NCBI GenBank assembly: GCA_030606215.1
Contig: JAUWGW010000014.1
Coordinates: forward strand, 1 to 37,018
Length of the DNA: 37,018 bases
Direction of reading: 5' to 3'
Source: a bacterium
GTDB lineage: Bacteria; NPL-UPA2; JAUVJM01
The position numbers and the translations under genes are program-made. Below the pieces are notes generated by a model that was not told where the DNA came from, searched no databases, and saw nothing but the letters and a program-made list of their open reading frames with translations. Positions 30,485 to 37,018 of this stretch are shown piece by piece. Positions within the stretch are counted from its first letter, which is position 1, and each line of letters begins with the position of its first letter.

Positions 30485-30547
30485 GGAAATGCAAAACAGG
30501 GCGGAGTAAGATTAAGACGGAGAACATTCAAAAATGGCTTTTTTGCT

Positions 30548-30628
30548 ACAAATTTAACCTCAGCTTATCAAGAGTCCTATGAAAAATGGGCTGGTGTTTT
30601 GAAAACGGAATTAAGCGAAAGGCAGTGA
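30548..30628 (+). pseudogene. Remnant of an FGGY sugar kinase: last 27 codons
   Basis: The frame from 30548 to the TGA at 30626-30628 encodes TNLTSAYQESYEKWAGVLKT plus six residues, nearly the same as the C-terminus of the kinase fragment at 36449-36844. DNA identity over the shared ~78 bases is about 90 percent by eye, and similarity stops abruptly at the codon for the first Thr. It is a tail left by deletion or recombination of a second kinase copy. It shows that the region just outside the dcw promoter was once part of a sugar-catabolism locus. Confidence 0.8.
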
Positions 30629-31850: not shown

Positions 31851-31895
31851 TAAAAAAACAGAGCGAGTAAAATTCGTTTAACTGGAACTCACCCG

Positions 31896-31917
31896 CCAAA
31901 ACCGCTTGCGGTTTTGG
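31896..31917. terminator. Perfect palindrome downstream of brnA
   Basis: CCAAAACCGC and GCGGTTTTGG pair around TT (in practice a GCTTGC loop). It lies about 30 bases after the brnA stop on the minus strand. No T-run follows, so it is a weak or factor-dependent terminator, or a repeat. Confidence 0.4.
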
Positions 31918-31945
31918 TCAGGTGCAGTGACCGGTTCTGCGATCC

Positions 31946-32158
31946 TTAGGATACCCACTTCAGGGTGAGTTTCTTGCCTGAGTGGGCGCACTCCTTGAGA
32001 TACAGATTGATAAGATTCTGGTAAGGAATCCCTGTCTCACTTGCCAATTCTCTGAAGTAATTTACCACGTCCACACCCAGACGAAGCGTAACCTGTTTCT
32101 TCAGATGCTTGGCATAGGGATTCCGGACCGATTGCGAAAAGTCATAGTGCTTTTTCAT
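31946..32158 (-). CDS. brnA: BrnA-like antitoxin
   Basis: A 70-residue ribbon-helix-helix protein: strand KKQVTLRLGVDVVNYFRELA followed by helix ETGIPYQNLINLYLKECA. This fits BrnA/CopG-type antitoxins that bind the toxin BrnT and repress the shared promoter. Start ATG 32158 overlaps the brnT stop (ATGA), in the toxin-first order usual for BrnTA. Confidence 0.85.
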   Translation of the reverse strand: MKKHYDFSQSVRNPYAKHLKKQVTLRLGVDVVNYFRELASETGIPYQNLINLYLKECAHSGKKLTLKWVS

Positions 32159-32445
32159 AGGAATCTCCCATACTGCTTACGTTCTTCCCTGTCCACCTTA
32201 CGGGCAGAGATAATTCTGATTTCTCTTTCGTCCTGTCGATACGTGTGACAGACGACCAGAATCCGGAGTTTCGCACTGAAGCCAAGAAGAACAAATCTAT
32301 CTTCCTCATGCGAATGATCGGGGTCGTGCATCAATCGGGCATTCTCATCAGAAAAGGCGGTGGCTGCTTCTTCAAACGAAATACCGTGTTTTCGAAAGTT
32401 GTCTCTCGCTTTCTGGTCGTCCCATGAAAATGTTATTTCATCCAT
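32155..32445 (-). CDS. brnT: BrnT-like RNase toxin
   Basis: A 96-residue RelE-fold toxin with the BrnT signature: FSWDDQKARDNFRKHGISFEEA, then FSDENARLMHDPDHSHEEDR, FVLLGFSAKLRILVVCHTYR and REIRIISARKVDREERKQY. In the characterised system it is a ribosome-independent RNase neutralised by BrnA. Start ATG 32445 lies 6 bases after a perfect -10 box with no ribosome site, which implies a leaderless mRNA. A second partial copy with the same upstream DNA is at 36894-37018. Confidence 0.9.
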   Translation of the reverse strand: MDEITFSWDDQKARDNFRKHGISFEEAATAFSDENARLMHDPDHSHEEDRFVLLGFSAKLRILVVCHTYRQDEREIRIISARKVDREERKQYGRFL

Positions 32446-32494
32446 AATGCTATTATAATGCCCATATCATTATAAGTCAAGGAGAATCTTGACG
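32321..32494 (-). repeat. Left copy of a near-identical inverted duplication (brnT 5' half and promoter)
   Basis: The reverse complement of this stretch matches 36845-37018 with 2 differences in 174 bases and no gaps; the match may extend beyond the window. Homology ends sharply at CGTCAAG (32494). Immediately outside lies the truncated mannosidase. Confidence 0.95.
32446..32480 (-). promoter_or_regulatory. brnTA promoter with overlapping operator palindrome
   Basis: Minus strand: TTGACT (32475-32480), 17-base spacer, TATAAT (32452-32457), then AGCATT and the ATG. A perfect inverted repeat TTATAATG-7-CATTATAA (32453-32475) covers the -10 box and the spacer, ideally placed for autorepression by the BrnA ribbon-helix-helix protein. 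Transcription would begin at or within one base of the start codon. Confidence 0.75.
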
Positions 32495-33378
32495 GCCCTT
32501 TTTAAAGATAAAATCTGATGGAACTCTGAAGATAATAGAAAAAAGAACAGGTTCAGTTTATCAGAATTGTCTCATATATGAAGATACAGAAGATGGTGGT
32601 GATGAATATAACTATTCTCCTATAAAGAATACAGAGACCTATACCACTGAAGGCGGGAAAGCAAAGATTACCCTGATTGAGAAAGGACCTATTCTTGCTG
32701 CATACAGGATAGAGTCAAGTCTGAACCTCCCAAGATCTCTGACGGCGGATAGGAAACACAGAAGCAGACAGAAAGTCACCTGCCCATTAACGAGTTTCGT
32801 AACAGTTTATGAAAAAAGTCCAAGAATAGATATCCATACAGAGTTTGAAAATAAAGTTAAGGACCACAGATTGAGAGTTCTCTTTCAGATTGATATTGAG
32901 ACTGATTTTTCTTTTGCAGATGGGCATTTTACTGTTGAGAAAAGACCAATTGACCCGCCGTCTTCAGAAGAATTGGTTGAAAAAATTTCAACACATCCTC
33001 AGAAGTCGTATGTATTCCTGAATGATGGAAGACGAGGAGTTGCCATTGTCAATAGAGGTCTTCCGGAATATGAGATTATCCGAAGTCAAAAAGGGAACAC
33101 AATTGCAATTACTCTACTGCGGGCAGTTGGGTGGCTGTCCCGTGATGACTGCCTTGAAAAAGGCGGAAGAAGGTAATGCAGTTATTGCAAGGTTTTTTAA
33201 TACTACATCTCAAAAAGTCAGAGGCAGGATAAAGTGCCTTCGAAAAATCAGAAAGGCAATTCTTACCGATTTGAAAGAGGAACCAATTTCCAGCAAACCA
33301 CTAAAAGTAACTAATCGGAATGAAATTAATCTGGAAGTTAAGGGAAACAAAATAGTAACCCTCAAGCTGTATTTGTAG
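32495..33378 (+). pseudogene. GH38 alpha-mannosidase C-terminal region, truncated and internally deleted
   Basis: The frame reads from the very edge of the brnTA duplication (32495) as ...LKIKSDGTLKIIEKRTGSVY, then GGDEYNYS, TSFVTVYEKSPRIDIHTEFE, LRVLFQIDI and LLRAVGWLSRDD: the beta-sandwich part of family 38 mannosidases. The catalytic N-terminal domain is missing. At about 33145-33170 the frame breaks: in frame 1 it ends after SRDDCLEKGGRR at 33176, while the next family block (ALKKAEEGNAVIARFFN) continues one frame over to a stop at 33378. In intact enzymes these blocks are well over 50 residues apart, so a deletion fused them out of frame. Not functional. Confidence 0.85.
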
Positions 33379-33981: not shown

Positions 33982-34032
33982 TGCGATTATTCTTCATATT
34001 TCCTCATTTTCTTAATTGCATCACAACTTCAC

Positions 34033-34052
34033 AAAAATCAGATGTGATTTTT
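34033..34052. terminator. A/T-rich hairpin downstream of the cupin gene
   Basis: AAAAATCA and TGATTTTT pair perfectly around GATG, 51 bases after the cupin stop; the right arm supplies the T-run. It could terminate in either direction but the stem is A/T-rich and weak. Confidence 0.45.
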
Positions 34053-34056
34053 ACGT

Positions 34057-34158: not shown

Positions 34159-34428
34159 ATGATTACAGAGGTAGATAAAAAAACAATACGGGAAGTATCG
34201 GGAAAATATCACGCCAAGCGTGTACTATTATTTGGCTCCAGTATAGATTCCACTAAAGAAAGCCACGATATAGATATAGCGGTGGAAGGAATATCTCCTG
34301 AAGATTTTTTCAAATATTACGGTGATCTTATGCTTAAACTTTCAAAGCCTGTAGATGTTGTCGATTTATCCGGAACCTCAAAATTCCTTAAGTTGATTCA
34401 AAAAGAAGGAGTGCTACTTTATGGCTGA
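34159..34428 (+). CDS. mntA: MntA-like nucleotidyltransferase antitoxin, second module
   Basis: An 89-residue minimal nucleotidyltransferase: VLLFGSSID (G26, S27) followed by SHDIDIAVEG with D37 and D39. It is shorter than the copy at 15489 and only distantly similar to it. The gene begins 6 bases after its -10 box, and it overlaps the partner toxin by 8 bases. Predicted to modify and silence the HepT-like protein next to it. Confidence 0.85.
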   Translation: MITEVDKKTIREVSGKYHAKRVLLFGSSIDSTKESHDIDIAVEGISPEDFFKYYGDLMLKLSKPVDVVDLSGTSKFLKLIQKEGVLLYG

Positions 34429-34837
34429 TTATAAAATGCACATTGAAGCCGAATATGAAACTATAGAAAAGATTCTTTCCTCTTTGCCTGATAAGCCGCT
34501 TTCTCAACTATCAGAATTAGAACTTGCAGGAGTAGCTACTTTAATACATAGTTTTTATAATGGAATTGAGAATATGATTAAACAAACCTTCCAAGCAAAA
34601 TCTCTCCATATTCCCACTGGAGCATCGTGGCATCAGAATCTATTACTTACAGCAGTGAAAGAAAGTATAATCTCTGCACAACTTGCAGACGAACTCAAAG
34701 AATATCTTGCTTTCAGACATTTCTTCACACATGCGTATGCCGTAGATCTCCAATACCAGCGAATTGAACCACTTGTAGCAAAAACTCTGAAAATATTTGA
34801 AAATTTTAAGACTGAAATAGATGAAATTGATATCTAA
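34421..34837 (+). CDS. hepT: HepT-like HEPN toxin, second module
   Basis: A 138-residue helical HEPN protein. The Rx4HxY motif is R99, H104, Y106 in AFRHFFTHAYAVDL. It shares the motif but little else with the HepT at 15158-15502 and belongs to the longer HepT branch (SFYNGIENMIKQTF). It follows mntA with an 8-base overlap (antitoxin first). The Arg-His pair forms the RNase site and Tyr is the expected AMPylation target, by analogy with characterised HepT-MntA. Confidence 0.85.
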   Translation: MADYKMHIEAEYETIEKILSSLPDKPLSQLSELELAGVATLIHSFYNGIENMIKQTFQAKSLHIPTGASWHQNLLLTAVKESIISAQLADELKEYLAFRHFFTHAYAVDLQYQRIEPLVAKTLKIFENFKTEIDEIDI

Positions 34838-34984
34838 CGAATTTGTCCTTATTACTTTGCTTTTCTAAAAGAGCAGTCTCTTTTAAAACTTCTTTAATCT
34901 TAATCCATATTCTTTCACCAAAACAAACTAACCTAGGGGGGGTACGATGTCTCTTCCCGTTCCCACTACATTTTGAAAAATTGC

Positions 34985-36450: not shown

Positions 36451-36844
36451 AATTCTTCTTCTTCTTTTCGCTTAATTCCATTTTCAAAACACCAACCCAC
36501 TTTTCATAAGCTTCTTGATAAGCTGAGGTTAAATTTGTATCAGGTTTAATAACTCTGGTTGCTTTCAATCCGATAAAAGCGTCTTTATAATTTTTATAAA
36601 TACCTGCACCAATTCCAGCCCCTCTTGCGGCGCCTTGTGAGCCGTCTGTATTGTAAAGTTCAAGGTTTGCCCCGGTAACAGTAGCAAATGCTTCTCCAAA
36701 TAACGGACTTAAAAACATATTGGCATCTCCCGCCCTGATAGTCCTCATCTCAATTTCCATATCACGCATTATTCCTAAACCATAGTTTAATGCAAAAACG
36801 ATTCCTTTTTTCAATTTTAAATGACACTGTGCCATTATAGGAAA
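36449..36844 (-). pseudogene. C-terminal half of an FGGY-family sugar kinase, 5'-truncated
   Basis: The translation carries the FGGY C-terminal lobe: LKKGIVFALNYGLGIMRDM, IRAGDANMFLSPLFGEAFA, a GSQGAARGAGIGAGIY glycine-rich block and a helical tail ending in a poly-Lys stretch. This is the xylulokinase-like pattern. The N-terminal lobe with the sugar site is absent: homology stops where the brnTA duplication begins (36845), and the open frame's apparent start at 36850 lies inside that repeat. A kinase of this family is about 500 residues, so some 370 are missing. Near-identical tail DNA occurs at 30548-30628. Confidence 0.85.
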
Positions 36845-37018
36845 CGTCAAGATTCTCCTTGACTTATAATGATATGGGCATTATGATAGCATTATGGATG
36901 AAATAACATTTTCATGGGATGACCAGAAAGCGAGAGACAACTTTCGAAAACACGGTATTTCGTTTGAAGAAGCAGCCACCGCCTTTTCTGATGAGAATGC
37001 CCGATTGATGCACGACCC
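36845..37018 (+). repeat. Right copy of the inverted brnT duplication
   Basis: It matches the reverse complement of 32321-32494 base for base except for two substitutions. One changes the brnT -10 box from TATAAT to TATGAT and puts one mismatch in the operator palindrome; the other is a silent Asp codon change. The copy is cut by the window end. Confidence 0.95.
36894..37018 (+). CDS. brnT: BrnT-like toxin, second copy, 5' part only
   Basis: ATG 36894 opens a frame identical in protein to the first 41 residues of the BrnT at 32155-32445 (FSWDDQKARDNFRKHGISFE and onward to LMHD) and runs off the window. Promoter boxes are TTGACT (36859-36864) and TATGAT (36882-36887), six bases before the ATG. 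Whether a brnA follows cannot be seen. Confidence 0.88.
   Translation, partial: MDEITFSWDDQKARDNFRKHGISFEEAATAFSDENARLMHD

Follow-up and report, generated by a model that had tools for sequence, protein, structure and literature searches.

The brnTA toxin-antitoxin unit described here is probably, at roughly two chances in three, an integron gene cassette of a decaying chromosomal integron, with a second, inverted copy at the contig end. It lies on contig C24 (the window, meaning the whole 37,018-nt stretch studied), which belongs to a MAG of 1.52 Mb in 34 contigs that is 92.9% complete. The sequence-only reading regarded the BrnTA unit as a module that moves without a transposase. The discrete module is supported, and an attC site lies behind brnA. 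The oddity of movement without a transposase is unneeded, because this attC at the end of brnTA makes an integron cassette system the best explanation of the apparent mobility. An integron integrase (IntI) acts in trans on cassettes, and clusters of attC sites without an integrase are called CALINs. We propose that the cassette would consist of a toxin-antitoxin operon, self-contained and driven by a promoter of its own, and of the attC at 31872-31941 behind it, whose folded single strand IntI would recognise. The genome would be what is left of an integron-bearing lineage: its attC sites are scattered and its IntI is in fragments.

The brnTA operon and its promoter

The toxin gene brnT (32155-32445, minus strand) encodes a predicted RNase of 96 aa that matches Pfam BrnT_toxin (PF04365, E=2.5e-28). 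The antitoxin gene brnA (31946-32158, minus strand; 70 aa) matches CopG_antitoxin (PF12441, 1.6e-7) and BrnA_antitoxin (PF14384, 1.1e-6), both above cut-off, and falls under the cut-off of the NCBIfam BrnA model NF047399 (0.00039). The toxin precedes the antitoxin, as in BrnTA. With this gene order, both families (PF04365, PF14384) above the Pfam cut-offs and a promoter of its own, the unit would be a type II BrnTA system, and no difference from such systems was seen. The promoter read from the sequence on the left is TTGACT-17-TATAAT (32452-32480, minus strand), and its -10 hexamer ends exactly 6 nt before the brnT ATG, with a 17-bp spacer. Because the promoter is so close to the gene, the brnT mRNA should be leaderless, which is a prediction. 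The distance of 6 nt between -10 and ATG was found in 29 of 78 BrnT relatives (5' regions, L119-L198; at least 9 of 12 consensus matches), and any other distance from 0 to 39 in at most 2 of the 78 each at the same threshold. Elsewhere in the same genome, C32:23020-23238 (L006 3021-3239) holds a BrnA-like ORF of 72 aa with 73% DNA identity to brnA over 122 bases. No BrnT was seen beside this ORF, which lies about 0.9 kb after the attC match C32:22074-22136 and is a possible orphan antitoxin.

A repeat search revealed one long inverted pair in the window, a left arm at 32321-32494 (minus strand) and a right arm at 36845-37018 (plus strand), each of 174 nt, with 4350 nt between the arms. These are the coordinates at which near-identical inverted copies had been proposed. 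A base-by-base comparison gave 172 of 174 identical bases (98.9%), in agreement with the two differences first noted. At 36885 (repeat position 41), A on the left is G on the right; this is the fourth base of the -10 hexamer, and the right promoter thus reads TTGACT-17-TATGAT (36859-36887, plus strand). At 36920 (repeat position 76), C is changed to T, which is synonymous in brnT codon 9. The repeat contains the promoter and codons 1-41 of the 96-codon brnT only, so that a duplication of brnT with its promoter, as first described, holds for the promoter and these codons and not for the whole gene. Both copies begin at the same 5' edge, CGTCAAG (CG^TCAAGA), just upstream of the promoter and approximately where the cassette start falls in relatives.

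Position 37018 is the physical end of the contig, and the right arm runs exactly into it. Therefore, the assembly limits the repeat to at least 174 bases, and the right arm probably shows only part of a longer repeat. Any brnA and attC beyond the right arm would be out of view because the contig ends there; a search across the MAG found no second assembled copy of brnA or attC. The coincidence of the copy ends is weaker evidence than stated earlier, because identity stops where either copy stops, the contig end truncates the right copy, and the 5' edge is non-canonical. Apart from one weak 21-base pair, no other repeat of more than 20 bases was found within 31-37 kb. The marks of an insertion sequence or transposon (transposase, terminal inverted repeats, target-site duplication) were not found for the repeat, and no transposase was among the Pfam-scanned genes between the arms. 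BrnT relatives in plasmid and phage collections all had less than 60% identity, and those on viral contigs 57% at most. These are too distant to explain the recent duplication.

An attC site directly downstream of brnA

The first clue to the nature of the unit was that a DNA search with the whole unit gave short matches to two genomes of the same phylum only just downstream of brnA, and not in brnTA. In these genomes, the matching element lies after or between unrelated genes, namely a HicAB-like pair, a MazF-like pair and a membrane-protein gene that precedes a DUF4160/DUF2442-like pair; these gene names come from reading translations, not from a family search. We considered that the element is part of brnTA itself, which is spoken against by the sites behind other genes in the phylum and in the same genome. 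In its clearest copy, this imperfect palindrome is bounded by AAC and GTT and, judged by sequence, the element has the form of an integron attC site.

In the window, the predicted attC site occupies 31872-31941 (minus strand), directly downstream of the brnA stop and in the same orientation. Two covariance models were built: R1 from five seed sites including this one, and R2 from 22 sites of related genomes with this one left out. R2, run with filters off, gave 49.5 bits (E=2.6e-10) for 31872-31941 as the only significant match in the 37-kb contig, the next having E=0.66. This E-value is strong but not wholly independent, because the 22 training sites were gathered with R1, which was seeded partly by 31872-31941. 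The bottom strand folds at -17 kcal/mol (z=-4.2), and none of 200 shuffles was as good. The fold is an imperfect hairpin with bulges and an unpaired spacer, in the manner of attC sites. The R' box GTTAAAC fits GTTRRRY, and the R''-like box GCAGAAC departs from RYYYAAC at two pyrimidine positions; the two are complementary at 4 of 7 positions. A strict search (RYYYAAC...GTTRRRY, 6 of 7 complementary) returned nothing in the 37-kb contig; drift in the R boxes hid the site from this search but not from the covariance model.

The other side of the unit does not have the canonical cassette junction. The 5' edge CG^TCAAGA is neither G^TTRRRY nor GTTCTGC, and it is not complementary to GCAGAAC. The 5' end of both copies may have been altered or truncated. 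No attC was found upstream of either brnT copy.

attC sites and integrase in the genome and phylum

R1 gave 27 matches in seven of the nine genomes from the phylum. Of these matches, 23 have E<=3e-4, and most of the 27 are no more than about 60 bases away from the stop of a same-strand gene. The genes they follow are unrelated (HicAB-like, RelE/ParE-like, MazF-like and others). On contig C1 of genome G003, three consecutive sites between small genes are spaced by 505 and 666 bases, which resembles a cassette array. In the genome to which the window belongs, R2 gave eight matches with E<=3e-4: 31872-31941, two on C19, one on C13, two on C9, and one each on C32 and C8, of which C13:63314 and C19:1622 were R2 training sites. 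With two further weaker matches, there are nine candidate sites besides 31872-31941, and the matches are mostly behind gene ends on the same strand.

The sister genome G001 encodes a full IntI (TIGR02249, 405.6 bits against a cut-off of 265). The genome studied here (G000) has a 65-aa C-terminal IntI piece at C13:64401-64592, 89% identical to the IntI of G001 and about 1 kb from an attC site. A second short IntI piece is also on C13, among TA-like genes. No intact IntI was found in this 93% complete MAG, which thus contains no complete integron. Since IntI occurs only as fragments, the genome holds at best a CALIN-like remnant. The fragments here, together with the intact IntI of the sister genome, indicate that the lineage had an integron and that the integrase decayed, at least in this MAG. 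In C13:60000-70000 (L217), the IntI fragments lie amid attC sites, a HicB-like gene, an MNT/HEPN-like pair and a DUF4160/DUF2442-like pair. Read from its gene content, this segment is a decayed chromosomal integron.

brnTA units in other genomes

This type of BrnT has a scattered distribution across many phyla; the closest relative, in a Lentisphaerae MAG, is 72% identical. Closely related brnTA units in different genomes have about 520-560 bp in common and no flanks. This shared unit starts a little before the promoter and ends shortly behind brnA (L120 and L122 are 92% identical). In other phyla, attC matches lie beside brnTA relatives on both sides in L150 and as an array in L135, and also occur in L158, L186, L134 and L180; at the loci of BrnT relatives, 18 of 18 R2 matches are on the brnT strand. 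In L120 and L121, brnT is preceded by GTTCTGC and brnA is followed by the complementary GCAGAAC, which is a cassette signature, and GCAGAAC also follows brnA in the window. Complementarity between the unit start and R'' across the relatives was seen in 4 of 79 versus 0.68 expected (8 of 2000 shuffles were as high). This supports the cassette reading, although the effect is small.

A decaying region around the repeat

As first noticed, both sugar genes lack their 5' part at the repeat edge, and homology begins within about 20 bases of 32494 for the GH38 gene and within about 40 bases of 36845 for the kinase. The former is a GH38 / mannosylglycerate-hydrolase-like pseudogene (32502-33375, plus strand; PF07748, 1.7e-18, matched from profile position 9) that corresponds to residues 502-725 and then, in another frame, 780-872 of NF007331, a hydrolase of 885 residues. 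The internal frame jump and deletion mark this C-terminal remnant as a decayed pseudogene, not a freshly cut gene. No GH38 N-terminal domain that could account for the missing 5' part was found in the MAG. This part is not across the left copy, which rules against a simple clean insertion. The latter is a C-terminal fragment of an FGGY (xylulokinase-like) kinase (36452-36850, minus strand) with a weak match under the cut-off to NCBIfam XylB (residues 370-479 of 481, E=0.00025). An FGGY_C search of the MAG found two other kinases (C8 and C29) and not this fragment. A second kinase tail of 77 bp, inverted, is at 30544-30620 and is 91% identical to 36466-36542.

The genes between the arms are a cupin, a MntA/HepT-like pair and a GDSL-hydrolase. 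The MntA/HepT-like pair (34159-34837) consists of Polbeta PF18765 and HepT-like_2 PF20797. An 88-bp element at 34879-34966 occurs again at C23:24531-24619 (93%) and partly at C18:35290-35333, and a palindromic stretch at 34003-34053 occurs again at C5:38789-38839 (88%). The region around the repeat is a graveyard of gene fragments.

Origin of the second copy

We suppose that the second copy, which adjoins the truncated kinase gene, would also carry brnA and attC, that IntI, and not homologous or illegitimate recombination, would have made it, and that the flanking sugar genes would have eroded after cassette insertion. A clean insertion by IntI is not demonstrated at either copy, because the 5' edge is non-canonical, no attC precedes it and the 5' part of the GH38 gene is absent.

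The main rival accepts brnTA as an old integron cassette and ascribes the second copy to recombination without IntI, either illegitimate or homologous, within a region in decay, so that the 5' edge is an ordinary breakpoint. This is a serious explanation, though not a probable one. It agrees with the non-canonical edge common to both copies, with an IntI present only as fragments in this genome, with other duplicated scraps nearby such as the 77-bp kinase tail, and with the frame jump in the GH38 remnant. However, the breaks in the two sugar genes fall within tens of bases of one and the same cassette position, just upstream of the promoter; breakpoints placed at random would not be expected to coincide in this way.

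It is rather unlikely that assembly or strain mixing at the contig end produced the right arm and that the genome has no second locus. For this reading, the arm and the contig end at exactly the same base, and the MAG has no second brnA or attC. Exact stretches of 140-141 bases are common to many contig ends of this MAG, which presumably reflects a de Bruijn graph assembly stopping at repeats. The last 98 bases of the arm equal those of the left copy, and 98 is also the exact overlap between the ends of another pair of contigs. We tried to derive the assembler k from this number; 98 is one below k=99 and not equal to it, so that only a typical repeat break is claimed. On the other hand, the two base differences between the arms mean that distinct molecules existed, the junction of kinase and brnT was assembled from reads, and a true repeat would equally stop an assembler here.

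A bolder version of the cassette reading is that brnTA cassettes leave arrays and insert promoter-first into ordinary chromosomal genes via a 5' junction other than G^TTRRRY, after which inverted pairs reshape the region between them; we hold this to be quite improbable. The sequence-only reading had also proposed that the copies recombined and inverted or deleted the 4.35 kb between them, which homologous recombination could do in principle. That the 4.35 kb segment 32495-36844 is invertible, flipping by homologous recombination between the inverted copies, is very improbable: the inverted repeats are at least 174 bp and 98.9% identical, and inversion between inverted IS copies within an integron array has been observed (PMC11023631), but no second orientation was seen and the Pfam scan recognised no recombinase gene between the arms.

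Relation to known systems and significance

That BrnT/BrnA is carried as an integron cassette is already published. BrnT/BrnA cassettes occur in metagenomic integrons (PMC7370490), three of them are in one H. halochloris CALIN (PMC7923331), and promoters of brnT-brnA cassettes have been reported (PMC8876359). The unit resembles the toxin-antitoxin cassettes of sedentary chromosomal integrons and CALINs in its own promoter, its small bicistronic form and an attC directly downstream on the same strand, and in that such cassettes are moved by an integrase in trans. In contrast to them, attC sites are sparse and dispersed here, the integrase is no longer intact, and the second copy lies inverted against a fragment of a chromosomal gene. 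Insertion of cassettes outside arrays, at attG sites, has been described (Loot et al. 2024, as far as it is cited in PMC12901181). A cassette beside ordinary chromosomal genes is like what that citation conveys. Compared with the attG insertion outlined there, the CG^TCAAG junction here is without a canonical cassette start, so that an attG event is not demonstrated.

In this reading, a known mobile system takes the place of a seemingly unprecedented self-moving toxin-antitoxin unit. For a sparsely sampled phylum, the analysis documents attC sites and cassettes along with an intact IntI, and one lineage in which the integrase decayed and the cassettes persist. Furthermore, the near-identical pair would suit as a natural test of how toxin-antitoxin cassettes duplicate and whether the duplicates lose their stabilising effect.
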